A stretch of 8,741 nucleotides of DNA from a bacterium (GTDB lineage: Bacteria; NPL-UPA2; JAGMAN01): contig JAGMAN010000072.1 of the NCBI GenBank assembly GCA_023130215.1, forward strand, positions 1 to 8,741, given 5' to 3'. The position numbers and the translations under genes are program-made. The stretch's first letter is position 1. The number at the start of each line of letters is the position of its first letter. Of this stretch, positions 41-6,617 are shown in pieces. Under the pieces are notes generated by a model that saw only the letters and a list, made by a program, of their open reading frames with translations, was not told where the DNA came from and did no database searches.

Positions 41-745
41 TCATTCACTTTCAGGGATAATCTCCAGAAGCCAATGTTTATCTTTAAATATTTTTCTACC
101 AGCTGCAAACTTCACCGGCCTTTTAAAGATGGGACCATCGTAGACAAAGGTATGGTATTCACCTTTCTCCCCACAGAGATCAACCCCGCTCGCCCCGTTG
201 GAGAGCTCTTCTCTACCCGGGTCAATATTGCCCAATCTTTTTAGGTCTTCTATGAATTTCTTATTTACTTCGCGGCCCAGCCACTCTTTGCCTAACAAAT
301 TAGCCTTAGTAGCTACTACAATGGCCTTGAAACCGGTCCGGATAAATTCTTTAAGTAATCCCTCCCTGTCTTCTCCCCATAAAGGCAACAGTGGTTTAAT
401 CTCCGCCTCTTTGCATACCCTCTCTACCCAATCCCGATGCTCCTGAAGGTCTATGTCGCCAAAAATGCCAACCTCAACGCCCTTCTTTTTTAACCCTGAA
501 ACTGCTTTTTTAAACACTCTTTCATAACTTCCCCAGGTAGTCCTCCCTTGGATAATTGGAATGTCTAAGGCATCTGCCTGGACTCTCAAGAGGGTTGAGC
601 TAACTCCGTGTGAACGAGAATGTTTACCATCCTCTGATACCATATTTAGAAGATAGGCAGTTTTAATATCTTGATTTTGCATTGTCTTATAACATGCCAG
701 AGATGTTTCCTTGCCCCCACTCCAGGAAACAAATGCCTTCTCCAT
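41..745 (-). CDS. Dph6/MJ0570-family ATP pyrophosphatase (PP-loop amidoligase-like, ATP_bind_4)
   Basis: This 234-aa protein has the length and layout of the diphthine-ammonia ligase (Dph6, MJ0570) family of adenine nucleotide alpha-hydrolases. The PP-loop is at residues 9-14 (SGGKET, a variant of SGGxDS), and the family's C-terminal signature GVDLCGEKGEYHTFVYDGP is at 187-205. LPLWGEDREGLLKEFI around 120-135 is also typical. Archaeal and eukaryotic members adenylate a carboxylate and amidate it with ammonia to finish diphthamide. Bacteria lack diphthamide, so the bacterial substrate is unknown. The ATG at 745-743 has GGAGG 6 nt upstream. It follows the asparagine-synthetase-like gene after 100 nt and probably shares its B12-riboswitch transcript. 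By inference it may amidate or adenylate a cofactor-related carboxylate. The acidic residue after the PP-loop lysine is E where the consensus has D. The family call is firm and the function is open. Confidence 0.85.
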   Translation of the reverse strand: MEKAFVSWSGGKETSLACYKTMQNQDIKTAYLLNMVSEDGKHSRSHGVSSTLLRVQADALDIPIIQGRTTWGSYERVFKKAVSGLKKKGVEVGIFGDIDLQEHRDWVERVCKEAEIKPLLPLWGEDREGLLKEFIRTGFKAIVVATKANLLGKEWLGREVNKKFIEDLKRLGNIDPGREELSNGASGVDLCGEKGEYHTFVYDGPIFKRPVKFAAGRKIFKDKHWLLEIIPESE

Positions 746-845: not shown

Positions 846-1910
846 TTATACTCTACTATGCTCCAAAACATGCCCACAGACTTTGCAATGAAAACTCCCG
901 GAACCCATCCCCGCCCCACATCCTGGACAGGTTTTCTGATCATTTTCAGGCTCAGGGATATCTCCTACTTCTTCTTTGTAAATCTCGTAATAGTAGAGGT
1001 GCTCTTTATTCATAAACTTTGTTGGATAAAGCCTGTTTTTTCTTTCAAACTCTTCATCCGATATCTTTGCGCTAATAATCTCCCTTAACTTTGTAGTCCC
1101 TGAGCCAAATTCTAATGGCCTCTTATCCTGCCAGATAATTTGGTGTGGCAAAACACCCTCAAAAGCCTTGCGTAAAATCCACTTTCCCCAAATCTTCCCT
1201 TCGCTTGCAGTCCTAAAGGCAGCACTCTTACGTGTCCCCCTCCTCAACTTAAGGTCCGATTTTATCTTAAGAGAAAATTTAGTAAATTCCTCATCCAGAT
1301 AGGGTTGCTTTATCTCTAATCCCAATAACTTGCCAAGCTCATTAGAACTAAAGTGCATTAGATAGGAAATCCTCCGGATATAATTGTCTAAGTTGTCCAT
1401 ATCCTGCATGAAGCTATATCCAGCAAAGAGCTCATCTGCGCCATCGCCAGTCATTACCGTCTTTAGTCCTTTCTCTTTAGCAAGCTTCAGGCCAAAGTAG
1501 ACAGTTATATCATTGGGAATGGCCGGGTCAAAACTTTTAAGAGCCTTTATTATTATCGGAATAGAACCAATAGCTTCTTCAGCGGAGATTAGCTTGTGGA
1601 AATATTCAATGTTAAGAAAATCGGCGACATATCTTGCATAATTGAGGTCTTCTCCATAAGATTCAAAGGTGACTACCATTGCCTTAATATTGGGCCTAAG
1701 GCTTGCCAGGATACTTGAATCCAGGCCTCCGGAGAGAAGCAAACCTTCTGCCTGGTTCTTTATGACGGCACTGCGCAATTTATCTTTTAATTCAGTCATA
1801 GAGAATTTCATGTCAGGAAAATCTTCCCTCACCTTAATCCTCATATAATTTTCTATGCAATAAATAAAAATCCTCAGCCTTCTCCGATCAGAAAACTGAG
1901 GAATCAACAT
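846..1910 (-). CDS. Asparagine-synthetase-like protein lacking the glutaminase domain, with C-terminal zinc ribbon
   Basis: This 354-aa protein matches the synthetase half of AsnB. The PP-loop SGGLDSS is at 60-66, TGDGADELFAGY (pyrophosphate/adenylate site) at 154-165, and the C-terminal helix pattern KWILRKAFEGVLP at 243-255. The N-terminal class II glutaminase domain of AsnB (catalytic Cys2, about 200 aa) is absent, so nitrogen must come from free ammonia or a partner, or the acceptor is some other amine. The tail carries CPGC (Cys328, Cys331) and CKVC (Cys342, Cys345), a four-Cys zinc ribbon that AsnB does not normally have. The ATG at 1910-1908 is preceded by GGGTGAGG (1925-1918) at 7 nt spacing. 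Later Met codons (residues 23, 34, 38) lack an SD, though the conserved core starts only near residue 38. It lies directly behind a cobalamin riboswitch and ahead of another PP-loop amidoligase-family gene. The family is firm; the substrate is unknown and perhaps corrinoid-related. Confidence 0.87.
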   Translation of the reverse strand: MLIPQFSDRRRLRIFIYCIENYMRIKVREDFPDMKFSMTELKDKLRSAVIKNQAEGLLLSGGLDSSILASLRPNIKAMVVTFESYGEDLNYARYVADFLNIEYFHKLISAEEAIGSIPIIIKALKSFDPAIPNDITVYFGLKLAKEKGLKTVMTGDGADELFAGYSFMQDMDNLDNYIRRISYLMHFSSNELGKLLGLEIKQPYLDEEFTKFSLKIKSDLKLRRGTRKSAAFRTASEGKIWGKWILRKAFEGVLPHQIIWQDKRPLEFGSGTTKLREIISAKISDEEFERKNRLYPTKFMNKEHLYYYEIYKEEVGDIPEPENDQKTCPGCGAGMGSGSFHCKVCGHVLEHSRV

Positions 1911-1913
1911 CTT

Positions 1914-1967
1914 CCTGCCTCACCCTTCTTTACCATAGAAGAAAACTGGCAAGCTCATCCAGGCAGG
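1914..1967 (-). promoter_or_regulatory. Putative expression platform: stem masking the ribosome-binding site
   Basis: On the minus strand CCTGCCT (1967-1961) is exactly complementary to AGGCAGG (1920-1914). A nested pair, CTTGCCA (1953-1947) with TGGTAAAG (1935-1928), forms with one bulged A and one G-T pair around an 11-nt loop. The outer arm covers the last bases of the SD (1925-1918) and ends 3 nt before the ATG at 1910. The 1967-1961 arm includes CCTG of the riboswitch P1 3' strand, so P1 and this stem cannot form together. No terminator-like T-run follows, so control of translation is more likely than attenuation. Confidence 0.5.
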
Positions 1968-2133
1968 TCTTCTGACTCCCGGCTCAACCTAATCACCACG
2001 CCTTCCCACCCTTGACATCGTAGATGTCAAGGACAGTGGCCTCTTGTGGCTTTCGTCCCCGGTGCACAGCGGCGGGTCCGTCCCTCTGGACTTCCCTATT
2101 CTCCCCACCAGAGAACATCTGGCAGGGCACCTG
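1961..2133 (-). promoter_or_regulatory. Cobalamin (adenosylcobalamin) riboswitch
   Basis: Read on the minus strand, the aptamer opens with AGGTGCC (2132-2126). It continues through the GC-rich core, GCCACTG (2040-2034) and GGGAAGGCG (2007-1999). It closes with the B12 box AGTCAGAAGACCTGCC (1977-1962), one base from the usual AGTCAGGAGACCTGCC. P1 can form from CAGGT (2133-2129) with ACCTG (1968-1964). The order, spacing and total length of about 175 nt fit the classic family. The leader lies 51 nt upstream of the asparagine-synthetase-like start codon and directly downstream of a consensus promoter on the same strand. Known members mostly reduce expression of B12 synthesis or transport genes, or of B12-independent isoenzymes, when cobalamin is plentiful. 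Here it should control the two PP-loop genes. Confidence 0.95.
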
Positions 2134-2159
2134 GACAAGAAATATTCAATTGTGGTCAG

Positions 2160-2188
2160 ATTATAAACCAGCTCAAGCTATCTGTCAA
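2160..2188 (-). promoter_or_regulatory. Consensus sigma70 promoter of the riboswitch operon
   Basis: On the minus strand there is a perfect TTGACA (2188-2183), a 17-nt spacer and a perfect TATAAT (2165-2160). Transcription should start near 2153, about 20 nt before the riboswitch P1 strand. That gives a leader of about 243 nt before the start codon at 1910. Confidence 0.85.
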
Positions 2189-2477
2189 GAGAAAAATGCA
2201 AATTTGAAGGATTTGGATGAGCTAGAAGTGCAAAATTTGCTAGGATTGGACTAGAATACGAGGAGGGTTTAAAAAGTATGGGCTTGAAAGTAAGGTATTA
2301 GTGCAGTTTCAGGGTGGTGCTTGTATACGGATCTGAAAAACTTTGCCGTTAGGCCAAGATGCTCTAAATGAGCGTCTTAGAAGTGGTGGTTTGGCTCTAA
2401 AGGTCAAATAGGACGTTTTAGGGCTGTTTTTAGAGGATGAATTTAGATTGCTTAGGCAGATGCTGCAAGGAAATTAT
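2189..2477. other. Intergenic stretch with no recognisable gene
   Basis: No convincing reading frame is present on either strand. The plus strand has stops every few codons in the frame that otherwise looks longest. There is one small inverted repeat, AAGATGCTC/GAGCGTCTT (2356-2378, one G-T pair, 5-nt loop). No tRNA arms, CRISPR repeats or T-tracts were seen. It may be decayed sequence marking the left edge of the accessory segment. Confidence 0.5.
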
Positions 2478-3224
2478 TCAAGGAAGGATTAGGGGAGGGG
2501 TATCTCGGCATAAATAGTCATATAATGGAGAAAAACTTCTTATAACTGAACTTACCTTATTTGCAAATTCAGGCTTTTTGACTATAGGACACCCATAGTA
2601 CCAATAATCGACACGAAACTGAAGTTGCATGTTGACATACCCCTTGAACTCCCTGGACTTAGCCTGTAAGGCGCTGCTTAGCGCTTCCATCCAGTAACGG
2701 TTCATTTTAATTTTCTCCTCTTGCCGAGCATATCTTTCACCCACTGCAGGGTCAATCTCCATGGTCGCATCGTTGACTAACTCGCTACCGCGATGCCCAC
2801 CCGCCGCATGGCGCTGCTCCAGCCAAAAGTATAAGTTTCGCACTTCAGGCCGTATCTCCTCAATCTTTCTACAGTATTTCTCTGGGTTCATAACCTTATC
2901 CCAATATTCCTTCTTAGAAGCTCCGTTGGGTATCGTCAAGGCTACCACTGCCTTTTGTCGTTGTATACCTACAGTGAAGTGTGGGTGTTTAAATTTATCT
3001 TTATTCTCCTTGTCAGAAAAAATACCCCATACACCGTATCGTTTTGATAGTCCATACTTACCTCTTATGCGCATCCCTCGGTAGGTTGCTTGGATCGAAT
3101 CCTCTATGACTTTCATAAGCTGATCTAAAAATTTCCTGGCTTCATCTGAATCATAACAATTATTATCGAACTTAATTCCACTAAATCTCTTTACGCTCAT
3201 TTCCTCCTCCGCAACCTCATACAT
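2478..3224 (-). CDS. Hypothetical protein, 248 aa, family not recognised
   Basis: This is a soluble-looking, basic and aromatic-rich protein with no signal peptide or membrane segment. The N-terminal half (about 25-100) alternates helix (SDEARKFLDQLMKVIEDS) with strand-like stretches (HFTVGI, AVVALTIP). Residues 105-200 look helical and contain QRHAAGGHRG (137-146). The C-terminus has an aromatic run, DYWYYGCP (206-213). None of these motifs points to a family I know. The start is uncertain. The ATG at 3224 has only a weak SD. An in-frame ATG at 3200 (MSVKRFSG) has GGAGG just 2 nt upstream, which is tight but may indicate the true start and would give 240 aa. Neighbours on the same strand are a membrane protein and a recombinase remnant, so an accessory role is plausible. 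The long uninterrupted frame supports a real gene. Confidence 0.6.
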   Translation of the reverse strand: MYEVAEEEMSVKRFSGIKFDNNCYDSDEARKFLDQLMKVIEDSIQATYRGMRIRGKYGLSKRYGVWGIFSDKENKDKFKHPHFTVGIQRQKAVVALTIPNGASKKEYWDKVMNPEKYCRKIEEIRPEVRNLYFWLEQRHAAGGHRGSELVNDATMEIDPAVGERYARQEEKIKMNRYWMEALSSALQAKSREFKGYVNMQLQFRVDYWYYGCPIVKKPEFANKVSSVIRSFSPLYDYLCRDTPPLILP

Positions 3225-3331
3225 TGCTCTTACTTATCATTCCACAACTCTTTTTTTATTCTCCTTGATTCTAAGAACCCTGCCTAAAAACAGTCCCTAG
3301 GTTGACTAACACGTCACAGAGAAAAGAATCT

Positions 3332-4252
3332 TTAATAATTTAATCGGCGAGATGAAATTGAACCATCTGTAATCCGAAGAACATAACCACGAATTTCACA
3401 AGAGTAGTATTCAACTTCGTGTCCATTCTTGAGCTTCCACCCAACATACGTTGGCACATTCATCTCCACCTCCGTCCAACGGCTCTGACCGCGCGGTCCA
3501 ATTCCGCGATACTTTACCTCCTTCAACACCCCAAAAGAACCACGCTGCTTCGTAGGCTTCCCATACATCTTCATCAGTCCATTAATAACACCCTCCAATT
3601 TATCACGAAACTCCACTGCGGAATATACATTATGAGCAAAGTGACATAAAATTATATCAAGATCATGTGTCCCCTTATTAAAAGAACACTCTACTTTTGT
3701 TGCTACCCCAAATGGTTTCGCCCAAAAGCCTATTTCATAGTTGTGATTGTAATCAACTCTATTATTTAATCTACGAAGAACCTTGTCTTTACTCATTCCG
3801 ATGCGCAGGCTTGTATTATTAAATCGTAATTCGCCAACGCCAGGGGACCCTGTAATATATCTTAATGCCAAGAACCCCAACAAAAATATAATTCCAAATA
3901 GAATTAGTAACCGACGACCCTTGTCAGGTATAGAGCCTACTTCCTTTCCTGTATAAACCTTCATTTTTTTGTCTTGGTCTTCGTTTTGCATAATCACAGA
4001 CTTTGGTTCTGGTTCTACCACAATCTCCTCGAGGTTTATATCTAGACCAGCTTGACGTAGTTTGGCTAGCCAATCAGCCTTTGCTTTTGGACCTTCATAG
4101 ACTGTGCAGGGGACACTCTCGATTAAATCCAGAGCCTCACTCAGTGAAATGGACTTAAAAATTCTCAGCGCCTTAGCCGCTGTTAGTCTTGCGACCGGCC
4201 CCGCGATTTTGGTAATAACTACCTTATATTGCTTGGCCAATCTCCCCACCAT
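3332..4252 (-). CDS. Membrane protein with N-terminal L7/L12-CTD-like domain and C-terminal extracytoplasmic domain
   Basis: This 306-aa protein has three parts. Residues 9-75 follow the pattern of the ribosomal L7/L12 C-terminal domain. The pattern runs VVITKIAG, then TAAKALRIFKSISLSEALDLIES matching the IKAVRELTGLGLKEAKDLVE helices, then a KxxxWLAKLRQAGLDINL helix-strand. After an acidic/basic linker (78-113) comes one transmembrane helix (114-133). It is preceded by KGRR, so by the positive-inside rule the N-terminus is cytoplasmic and residues 135-306 are outside. The outer part contains LRIGMSKDKVLRRL (149-162), which recalls the G-M-S-x-x-x-V turn-helix of BamE/SmpA-like domains, and three cysteines (189, 203, 285). 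It is therefore not a ribosomal protein. The ATG at 4252 has a weak SD (AGAAG). Function is unknown. The L7/L12 resemblance is by eye. Confidence 0.65.
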   Translation of the reverse strand: MVGRLAKQYKVVITKIAGPVARLTAAKALRIFKSISLSEALDLIESVPCTVYEGPKAKADWLAKLRQAGLDINLEEIVVEPEPKSVIMQNEDQDKKMKVYTGKEVGSIPDKGRRLLILFGIIFLLGFLALRYITGSPGVGELRFNNTSLRIGMSKDKVLRRLNNRVDYNHNYEIGFWAKPFGVATKVECSFNKGTHDLDIILCHFAHNVYSAVEFRDKLEGVINGLMKMYGKPTKQRGSFGVLKEVKYRGIGPRGQSRWTEVEMNVPTYVGWKLKNGHEVEYYSCEIRGYVLRITDGSISSRRLNY

Positions 4253-4338
4253 TTCTTCTGGTCAGTATCTGTTGTTTAACCTTCAATCTTCACCTCTGGT
4301 CCATTTTGTGACGGGCTCTCAATGAAAGTTTGTGTGTC

Positions 4339-4943
4339 CTATCTTTTTTCATATGCTTCTCTAACTTGCTCTGGTGCCAGATTAGAGTAGATTTGGGTGG
4401 TAGCTAACCTTTTATGGCCTACTTGTTTTTGTACTGCTGCCATTGGGATACGGTCTAAGAGAGCATGGAGACTATGTGGGTATGCCTTAAAGTGTGGGGA
4501 GAAGCTTCTAAATTGGCTCTCTGAGCGTATTTTTTCATTAACTGTTGTATTGGCTAAAAAGCCTTCCTTGCTTAATCCTGGCCATTTTAAGGTATGCTGA
4601 GACATCGGATAGAACTTCCTTGCTTACAATAATGGTCCTGGCAGTGTTAGTTTTAGTGTTTTCTGCGGGATACGGATAAATCTTTCCTGAAAGTCTATAT
4701 CCTCTACTTTGAGTTTGGCCAGCTCACCTACTCGCGTACCGGTAGAATAGAGAAGTTTCACAATAAGCTTGTCTCTGTAGTTGTCTATAGATTCTATTAG
4801 TTGTTGCCACTCTTCTCTCTTTAAATACTTGATTTCTTTATTATTTTGGTTTTGTGTGTTGGTTTTATAGGTTATTCTTGCCATTTTCAACATTTATTCT
4901 GAGGTAACATTTCTATACTTATTTCAGAATATTCATACTTCAT
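4339..4943 (-). pseudogene. Decayed tyrosine recombinase (phage integrase family)
   Basis: Pieces of one integrase catalytic domain lie in three frames. The first (4624-4893) has LKREEWQQLIESI and STGTRVGELAKL with catalytic Arg54, then runs out at TAA after RFIRIP. A second frame continues the family pattern (AENTKTNTARTIIVSKEVL, about 4663-4606, into SDVSAYLKMARI). A third frame (4339-4605) gives GFLANTTVNEK, then PHSL, VGHKRLATTQIYSNLAPEQV with the His/Tyr motifs (GH 63-64, Tyr73). Two single-base shifts near 4665 and 4575 explain the breaks. Between PHSL and HALLD the usual RHTFAT-like residues, including the second catalytic Arg, are deleted. The N-terminal core-binding domain is missing. 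An AAGGAG SD (4959-4954) precedes an out-of-frame 18-codon stub (4943-4887), perhaps a third shift. The enzyme cannot be active. Confidence 0.85.
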
Positions 4944-4974
4944 ATCATTTACTCTCCTTTATTATTTCCCTGAT

Positions 4975-5469
4975 CTACTTTCTTTTTCCCTTATCATAAT
5001 TTTTGCTATATCGCACCACCAACCCAATTAACAACCTAAGATCAGAATTTCCTATCTTTTTGATAATACTTTTTGCAACAACATCTTCATATAACTTCTT
5101 CATAATATAATCAACTTTTCTCTTCCGTTTTTCCTTATTTTTCTCACTTATTGATCCTTGTTTCTTATCTTTGCTTTTATCTTTATCCGTTACAATTTCC
5201 ACTTTTTTAGTTAATACATAATTTTCTTTCAATTTCTTAAAAAGTTTATCTATTGTTTCTTTAGCATGACGAGGAACAGGTGTTGTAAAACCACCTGGAA
5301 CTTCAGTAATAAATATCCATTTTAAACAACTATTATCTCTATAAACTACATCCCCATATTGATTTGTATAAGTAACCACTTTACAATCTTTTGCAAATAC
5401 TACTGGATTCATACTTACAACAACCATAAAAACAACCAACATCATAACACGTTTCATGACCTTTTTCAT
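4975..5469 (-). CDS. Small secreted lysine-rich protein, family not recognised
   Basis: This 164-aa protein starts with a clear Sec signal peptide: basic MKKVMKR, a hydrophobic core at 8-24, and probable cleavage after VFA (26). The mature part has two cysteines (29 and 48) flanking TYTNQYGDVVYRD (33-45), a beta-hairpin-like stretch that could be disulfide-closed. It loosely recalls the YxYxDxxGxVxYSD start of DUF4124-type periplasmic domains. Residues 93-120 are a very charged Lys/Asp/Glu linker, followed by a helical, basic C-terminus. The ATG at 5469 has AGGAGG (5482-5477) at 7 nt spacing. An exact 12-bp tandem duplication (5453-5476) covers the start and adds four codons. The gene is much more AT-rich than the flanking genes, suggesting recent acquisition together with the adjacent recombinase remnant. 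Confidence 0.65.
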   Translation of the reverse strand: MKKVMKRVMMLVVFMVVVSMNPVVFAKDCKVVTYTNQYGDVVYRDNSCLKWIFITEVPGGFTTPVPRHAKETIDKLFKKLKENYVLTKKVEIVTDKDKSKDKKQGSISEKNKEKRKRKVDYIMKKLYEDVVAKSIIKKIGNSDLRLLIGLVVRYSKNYDKGKRK

Positions 5470-5699: not shown

Positions 5700-6083
5700 T
5701 TATTTATCTCTTAAAACTGCTTCTATCTTTGATGTATCTATTCTTGATACATCTGTATGAACCAAAGCAGACGCTATTTGACCAGGACTTACATTGAGCC
5801 CCTCTTTTTGCTTGTAATATTTAGCAATTTTTTCAAGCTTAATCCAGTCTTCATCAAAGAGAGGGATTTTATTCCGCCTTTTCTTGAGGGCCCCTACCAG
5901 CGCAGGCCGGCCCCCACTGGATCGCAGCCGTTCTACAAGGAACTGCCGGAGTGCAAATAAAGAAATCGGCCCCTGTCTTGTATCTATTGTTACTCCTACC
6001 GCTTCTGCGCCCAACTCTTTGGCTACAACTTTAAGATTAACCTGTCTCTGGGTTAGTCCGACATTTTTAATTATTCTTGCCAT
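5700..6083 (-). CDS. Small protein with predicted ribbon-helix-helix C-terminus (putative regulator)
   Basis: This is a 127-aa protein. The N-terminal 60 residues (ARIIKNVGLTQRQVNLKVVAKELG and so on) are not recognised. After a GGRP turn and a basic KKRRNK stretch (67-72), the C-terminal part reads as a short strand (KIPLF, 72-76), a helix (DEDWIKLEKIAKYYKQK, 77-93) and a second helix after SPGQ (99-113). This is the strand-helix-helix order of ribbon-helix-helix DNA-binding proteins, where SPGQIA resembles the usual turn. The ATG at 6083 has a strong SD (GAGGAGGGAGG) just upstream. The gene begins 19 bp after the 145-aa protein gene, so the two are surely co-transcribed. The palindromic operator in their promoter makes this protein a candidate autorepressor. 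The fold is a visual prediction. Confidence 0.6.
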   Translation of the reverse strand: MARIIKNVGLTQRQVNLKVVAKELGAEAVGVTIDTRQGPISLFALRQFLVERLRSSGGRPALVGALKKRRNKIPLFDEDWIKLEKIAKYYKQKEGLNVSPGQIASALVHTDVSRIDTSKIEAVLRDK

Positions 6084-6102
6084 TTTCCTCCCTCCTCAAG
6101 TC

Positions 6103-6540
6103 TTATTTTGGATCGTATTCGCGAATTCTGAAAAATTCGCCGGCAAATTCAAACACTACTTCTCCTTGATTTGTTTCCCGGCCAAATCTATGCAGAAATT
6201 CTCTGAGCAGTTTTAAGTTTTTTTCGAATCTGCTCGGATAAATATATGTGTATGTTATGGTGGTCTTTTCCCAAAGCATATCCTCATCTCTTAACTGGTC
6301 TATGCTGTCAATGTCCCTTTCTTGACTTAACCAGGTGCCCTCCGCAGGTGGCATTGTGGTTGAACCTCCCCCGATAATTGCAAGTACTTTCTGGGCTTCC
6401 TTGATCCAAATGTGAAGATTTTTTATCTCTCTGCCCTTTCTATCTTTGTTGGGGATATACAAAGTTAACTGCTGTGTCGAAGGTGCTTCTGCAGAACCTA
6501 AAACTTCTTTCAAGTTGATCTCTAAAATATCATCTGACAT
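6103..6540 (-). CDS. Hypothetical protein, 145 aa, first gene of a two-gene cassette
   Basis: This compact soluble protein has alternating strand and helix stretches: QQLTLYIPNKDRKGREI (23-39), a helix HIWIKEAQKVLAIIGGGSTTMPP (43-65), GTWL (68-71), TTITYTYIYP (93-102), a helix KNLKLLREFLHRFGRETNQGEVVFEF (108-132), then FFRI. Gly-rich IIGGGSTTMPP and HRFGRETNQGE look conserved in style. I have a vague memory of small proteins with this pattern near restriction-modification genes, but cannot confirm it. There is no signal peptide or membrane segment. The ATG at 6540 has GGGAGAG a few bases upstream and sits about 17 nt after the predicted transcription start, so the leader is very short. It is co-transcribed with the downstream ribbon-helix-helix-like gene. 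Confidence 0.65.
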   Translation of the reverse strand: MSDDILEINLKEVLGSAEAPSTQQLTLYIPNKDRKGREIKNLHIWIKEAQKVLAIIGGGSTTMPPAEGTWLSQERDIDSIDQLRDEDMLWEKTTITYTYIYPSRFEKNLKLLREFLHRFGRETNQGEVVFEFAGEFFRIREYDPK

Positions 6541-6563
6541 ATTTATCTCTCCCTATTGTTGTA

Positions 6564-6592
6564 AGTTTACCACTTTTGGCCCCAAAAGTCAA
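6564..6592 (-). promoter_or_regulatory. Promoter of the two-gene cassette
   Basis: On the minus strand TTGACT (6592-6587), a 17-nt spacer and TAAACT (6569-6564) give a plausible sigma70 promoter. Initiation should fall near 6557, about 17 nt before the ATG at 6540. Confidence 0.6.
6572..6589. promoter_or_regulatory. Perfect 18-bp palindrome: probable operator
   Basis: ACTTTTGG-CC-CCAAAAGT is an 8-bp perfect inverted repeat around a 2-bp centre. It fills the spacer and overlaps the last bases of the -35 box of the cassette promoter, which is the classic position for a dimeric repressor to block RNA polymerase. An RNA hairpin role is unlikely because it lies upstream of the predicted transcription start. 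The candidate binder is the ribbon-helix-helix-like protein encoded second in the operon. Confidence 0.6.
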
Positions 6593-6617
6593 GGTTTTTT
6601 TAGATACTAAAAGGCTC

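Follow-up and report, generated by a model that had tools for sequence, protein, structure and literature searches.

The question raised by this locus is whether a small two-gene operon with an inverted repeat in its promoter is a self-repressing module, such as a toxin-antitoxin (TA) pair, and if so, what its first protein might do. The stretch of DNA analysed, hereafter the window, is 8,741 nucleotides long, and the operon lies on its minus strand. Its first gene, A (6103-6540, minus strand), encodes a 145-aa protein that is a candidate member of the SAM-lyase/PII-like superfamily, and its second gene, B (5700-6083, minus strand), encodes a 127-aa putative autorepressor or antitoxin. B starts 19 bp downstream of A and is preceded by a strong Shine-Dalgarno sequence, GAGGAGGGAGG (6087-6098, minus strand; also written GAGGAGGGAGGAAAATG). 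The promoter contains a -35 box, TTGACT (6587-6592, minus strand), and a -10 box, TAAACT (6564-6569, minus strand), separated by a 17-bp spacer, and the leader is short. The original prediction, which had described an operon of this composition, spacing and leader length with a strong Shine-Dalgarno sequence before the second gene, was accurate on all these points. The -35 box is kept in the related loci L002, L003, L035, L026 and L006, and the -10 box is kept in L002 and L003 and reads TAAGCT in L035.

The inverted repeat (6572-6589, no strand) reads ACTTTTGG-CC-CCAAAAGT and is a putative operator. It had been described as an 18-bp perfect palindrome filling the promoter spacer; the 8-bp arms are indeed perfect, but the 2-bp centre, CC, is asymmetric and not self-complementary, and the repeat, while occupying most of the spacer, also reaches into the last three bases of the -35 box. 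When the 90 bp upstream were shuffled with preservation of dinucleotides, 0.8% of the shuffles matched or beat this repeat, which is thus beyond chance. The half-sites ACTTTTG...CAAAAGT are found at the same position before A in L002 and L035 (both from the Omnitrophota sample), in L003 (a metagenome-assembled genome labelled Nitrospirota) and, one base shorter, in L026 (Planctomycetota sample). Genomes G000, G145, G146 and G620 each contain one perfect match to ACTTTTGN4CAAAAGT, always before A. Between the window and L035, all 14 half-site bases are identical, although synonymous sites are saturated or nearly so (dS of 1.7 for B, and above the limit for A). More distant pairs carry other promoter repeats: ACTTTCggtgcaGAAAGT in L006, CTTTCTATATAGAAAG in L015, TTTTGGGTACttaGTACCCAAAA immediately 3' of the -10 box in L016, and CGGCGATCtatattGATCGCCG spanning the -10 box in L013. 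Taken one locus at a time, the repeat is not significant in several cases (P 0.11 for L002, P 0.27 for L006), and no inverted repeat was seen in the promoters of L017 and L018. An upstream hairpin with 14-bp arms in L004, possibly a terminator, was left out of the operator count. A repeat is present in most homologous loci, and the retention of the half-sites despite nearly saturated synonymous sites, together with the single perfect match per genome, provides good evidence for a dedicated autoregulatory site. We infer that B is the protein that binds it.

An intact and adjacent A-B pair was found in 11 loci (the window, L002, L004, L006, L013, L015, L016, L017, L018, L026 and L035), which span Omnitrophota, Planctomycetota and other phyla. 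In all of these A comes before B, and the two genes almost touch. Of the damaged pairs, L003 has a frameshift in A, L019/L045 a broken B and L030 a truncated A. A type II TA system is expected to consist of two small neighbouring genes that are kept together, and the 11 pairs conform to this, the exceptions being L045, where B is broken and A is still open, and L071, where B occurs without a recognisable A. Independent occurrence of the two genes would have spoken against a joint module; they are nearly always together, but the clearest exceptions are relatives of B that accompany a PIN toxin or IetAS, to which we return below. An A-like gene was present in 3 of the 285 genomes of the Omnitrophota sample and in 9 of the 294 genomes of the Planctomycetota sample, so its distribution is patchy. 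Both A and B are under purifying selection, with omega values of 0.09-0.36. The frameshift of A in L003 was not used as an example of toxin decay: it concerns one base in a TTAAAA run and constraint continues downstream of it, so either the sequence contains an error or the gene was lost very recently.

Repeat, A and B form a single unit of DNA homology (5701-6593, minus strand). L003 is 93.7% identical to the window over exactly 5701-6593, and L002 is 77% identical over 5732-6593. Upstream of the -35 box the window has no homology to either locus. Because the homology stops at the -35 box in both comparisons, the operator, A and B travel as one unit, a mobility that the original prediction had not foreseen. 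In L002 the pair lies between hisA and hisF of a histidine operon (gene names read from the open reading frames). A broken tyrosine recombinase, represented by two Phage_integrase fragments (4339-4893, minus strand), lies downstream of the pair in the window, and a recombinase remnant lies likewise downstream in L003. An intact tyrosine recombinase is located immediately upstream of A in L015 (also designated L038), and another is present in L046 (a synonym of L035). In L046 the pair is flanked by an Xre/MbcA/ParS-type antitoxin gene and a BrnA antitoxin gene, and is close to BrnT, a CopG antitoxin, a plasmid RepA and the recombinase, on a plasmid-like island. The same island, in a genome of the Omnitrophota sample, carries a 112-aa gene of histone-fold appearance beside an HU-like gene (L046, 2237-2844). 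Scans of viral contigs gave no relatives of the cassette-type A, and a tblastn search of phage and plasmid collections with A returned only a 26% match to a DUF3574 protein and, separately, a weak hit in a Brevundimonas phage.

Other features of the window were recorded as well. A cobalamin riboswitch aptamer (1945-2149, minus strand; Rfam RF00174, 85 bits) lies just upstream of an asparagine-synthase-like gene (846-1910, minus strand) with no visible glutaminase domain, and an ATP-pyrophosphatase of the diphthamide synthase family (41-745, minus strand) is likewise downstream of the riboswitch. A further gene (3332-4252, minus strand) encodes an apparently membrane-anchored protein of 306 aa, which near its N-terminus shows weak similarity to the C-terminal domain of ribosomal L7/L12 (E 6e-4).

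Scans of A and B against Pfam, NCBIfam and PADLOC gave nothing useful, and A had neither an S-AdoMet_lyase nor a DUF3574 match in Pfam. A matches no known toxin family, in line with the earlier impression that it is unlike the common toxins; it is not an orphan as had been supposed, since it has relatives in several phyla. A and its relatives match the PHROG family phrog_3543 (function not known) with E values of 8e-6 to 3e-3, and prophage-like forms match with 4e-8; A itself matches weakly directly and more strongly via intermediates. An AF2 model of A, made with 3 sequences, adopts a ferredoxin-like fold (pLDDT 68.6, pTM 0.67). A Foldseek search of the PDB with this model placed the phage SAM lyase Svi3-3 at ranks 1 and 2 (E 6e-3 and 1e-2, prob 0.99), while a further SAM lyase and SAM-AMP lyases occupied ranks 7, 8 and 10-12. 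SAM lyase is a trimer of ferredoxin-like folds, and the predicted monomer of A, compared as a monomer, agrees with it. Because VIA-align gave the model a Z of 6.2 over 105 residues against SAM lyase, below designed ferredoxin folds, the fold match on its own would prove little.

A similar result was obtained independently of the model with profile A10, built from eight diverse A-like sequences and including no SAM lyase. Among all PDB sequences, this profile ranked Svi3-3 first (E 0.085) and SAM or SAM-AMP lyases at 4-6, and its alignment places G68-x-W70, E91 and Q125 of A opposite G56-x-Y58, E69 and Q104 of Svi3-3. These Svi3-3 residues are conserved and contact the substrate in SAM lyases (PMC7877911), and the Glu and Gln are also common to SAM-AMP lyase (PMC12255297). 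With profile A11, built from another row set, Svi3-3 drops to rank 5 (E 0.73). The superfamily profile scores the Svi3-3 segment above all shuffles (0 of 1916 as high), and a profile of the cassette clade alone did not find Svi3-3. MAFFT and hhalign alignments of T3 SAMase with A were unconvincing and provided no sequence link, and relatives of Svi3-3, sought in viral contigs and phages for a SAM lyase profile, were not found. Across 15 diverse A proteins, seven columns (P30, G59, T61, G68, W70, E/D91 and Q125) show little or no variation. The Gly-x-Tyr, catalytic Glu and Gln of SAM lyases are thus all represented in A, with Trp for Tyr and, in several clades, Asp for the catalytic Glu at position 91.

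Svi3-3, T3 SAMase and SAM-AMP lyase thus resemble A in the predicted ferredoxin-like fold and in the order of G-x-[YW], E and Q, and in Svi3-3 the spacing of these residues is similar as well. A differs from SAM lyases in that sequence similarity is near noise, in the missing S-AdoMet_lyase match, in the Asp of some clades, and in being chromosomal, in a two-gene operon with a partner that appears to be of the ribbon-helix-helix (RHH) type. The model, the superfamily profile and the invariant residues each point to the SAM lyase superfamily, each of them weak when taken alone, and we consider it likely that A belongs to the phage SAM lyase/SAM-AMP lyase superfamily, a resemblance that had not been anticipated. 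Proteins of phrog_3543 and DUF3574 have the same P, G, T, G-x-W, E/D and Q columns as A. One DUF3574-like relative, which does not have B as a partner and has the appearance of a secreted protein, retains these residues, and cleavage of SAM is implausible for such a protein. For this reason cleavage of SAM or SAM-AMP by A, although predicted, is rated below the superfamily assignment. A second class of A-like proteins, with WDRVTVxE instead of WExxxV, occurs in genomes G241 (L028, L029, L031-L033) and G285 (L020, L027), with five copies in one genome of the Planctomycetota sample, and is mostly followed by a small basic protein and not by B.

Proteins of the B family share an N-terminal part (LGA...GP..L..LR..L..RLRS.GGRP, including the GGRP linker) and a C-terminus with a strand-helix-helix pattern (RxKIPL..DW..LE.iA...vSPGQiAsaLl). 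The AF2 model of B was too poor to use (pLDDT 53), and its best VIA-align score (Z 3.4) was uninformative. No RHH match was obtained for the B of the window in Pfam or for the B profile among PDB chains. The most distant B, in L016, matches CopG_antitoxin (E 0.025) and a phage repressor family of PHROG (E 0.007), and the gene following a prophage-like relative of A in L024 encodes an RHH protein of the HicB family (E 2.5e-12). The RHH C-terminus that had been proposed for B thus finds support in the pattern and in the matches of distant relatives but not in a Pfam match or a usable model of the window protein, and no confident non-DNA-binding fold was found for it, with the same poor model. 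The C-terminus of B looks RHH-like and is a putative DNA-binding domain.

A search with B alone retrieved B-family genes without A. In L069 such a gene lies directly 3' of a PIN-domain gene (PF01850, above the cut-off), a toxin-first order, and in L070 a B-family gene is the first of an operon with IetA (E 3e-71) and IetS (E 3e-24), which together form the known defence system IetAS. This operon occupies 1559-5353 on the minus strand of L070, with a ParA-like gene upstream. B relatives therefore occur with other effectors, as partner-swapping antitoxins do, although in the IetAS operon the B-family gene comes first and not second, and in both the IetAS and the PIN-domain (VapC-like) operons the effector differs from A. 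Partner exchange, a feature of type II TA systems, is seen both in the combination of B with PIN in L069 and in that of distant A-like genes with RHH-looking genes in L023 and L024. In these loci (L023/L051 and L024/L050) the A-like genes match phrog_3543 (E 4e-8) and the RHH-looking gene, of the HicB family in L024, follows about 80 bp later; L051 has phage-like neighbours.

Of the known systems, the toxin-first pairs with an RHH antitoxin, HicAB and BrnTA, resemble the cassette in having two small genes, an RHH-like second partner, a promoter operator, a patchy and mobile spread and TA genes alongside, and differ in that the A protein, in the position of the toxin, matches no known toxin family. 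The notion of a small self-repressing module such as a TA pair fits well with the gene order, the co-conservation and the conserved single operator, TA function itself being a prediction. We consider the chances about even that the cassette is a mobile module of the TA or defence type, combining an effector that resembles SAM lyases with an antitoxin that represses its own operon. This role is preferred mainly on the basis of gene company, namely the PIN gene, IetAS and the antitoxin genes that flank the L046 pair. Such a module could operate as follows. The RHH-like C-terminus of B would bind DNA and its N-terminal part may contact A. B, or an A-B complex, bound to the inverted repeat over the -35 box, would block RNA polymerase and repress its own operon. 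If B disappears, or is titrated in the course of an infection or as the element is lost, A would be released from neutralisation by B, and free A would deplete SAM or a derivative, bringing the cell or the invader to a halt.

The same layout is known from acr-aca cassettes, and A might instead be an anti-defence protein that counters restriction-modification or BREX as a SAM lyase, or type III CRISPR as a SAM-AMP lyase. On entry, a strong promoter would drive a burst of A, after which an Aca-like B would repress at the inverted repeat. Phage SAM lyases do counter restriction and BREX, a phage SAM-AMP lyase is a candidate anti-CRISPR (PMC12255297), and in acr-aca operons (Aca1, Aca2) the effector also precedes the repressor, with inverted repeats over the -35 and -10 boxes (PMC8434428). 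The position of the cassette beside recombinases and on a plasmid-like island would suit this as well. However, B appears to be RHH-like and not HTH and has a conserved N-terminal part beyond what DNA binding would require, the cassette was not found in phage, the phage and plasmid collections contain no relative of A beyond the 26% DUF3574 match, relatives of B accompany a PIN toxin and IetAS rather than anti-defence genes, and copies are present in chromosomal loci such as the his operon. An anti-defence role therefore seems unlikely to us.

We give similarly little credence to a type II TA system in which the ferredoxin-like A has another target, for example RNA or protein, and owes its likeness to SAM lyases to convergence. 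Ferredoxin-like folds are common, many unrelated folds reach VIA-align Z values of 5-8, several clades have Asp instead of Glu, and the secreted DUF3574-like relative keeps the residues. On the other hand, SAM and SAM-AMP lyases top two independent searches, with the model and with the profile, and the conserved columns of A coincide with SAM lyase active-site residues. A metabolic regulatory pair, in which A would be a PII-like ligand sensor that tunes the repressor B with no role in toxicity or defence, is more improbable still. The SAM lyase fold is GlnB-like (PMC7877911), one copy lies in a histidine operon, and there is a single dedicated operator, but the patchy spread, the several A-like copies in one genome, the mobility and the TA neighbours suit selfish modules better than housekeeping sensors.

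As a kind, the cassette would thus be a TA or defence cassette, of which the effector and antitoxin families look undescribed; the open-access literature searched did not yield any description of a toxin-antitoxin pair with a SAM lyase. It is a tentative and rather doubtful proposal that this is the first TA or abortive-infection module with a SAM (or SAM-AMP) lyase effector, in which bacteria and mobile elements would have reused a SAM-destroying fold of phages for self-poisoning, under the control of a partner-swapping RHH-type antitoxin that PIN toxins and IetAS have as well. SAM-destroying enzymes serve phages in counter-defence and, in CRISPR, represent a signal-degrading step. If the preferred reading of a TA- or defence-type module is true, a chromosomal mobile operon in which a relative of these enzymes is controlled by a partner-swapping, antitoxin-like repressor would tie the destruction of a metabolite to TA and defence biology. 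B would then be a new antitoxin family, associated with PIN toxins and IetAS as well, phrog_3543 and DUF3574 would gain a testable function, and the candidate active-site residues of A make the reading directly testable.
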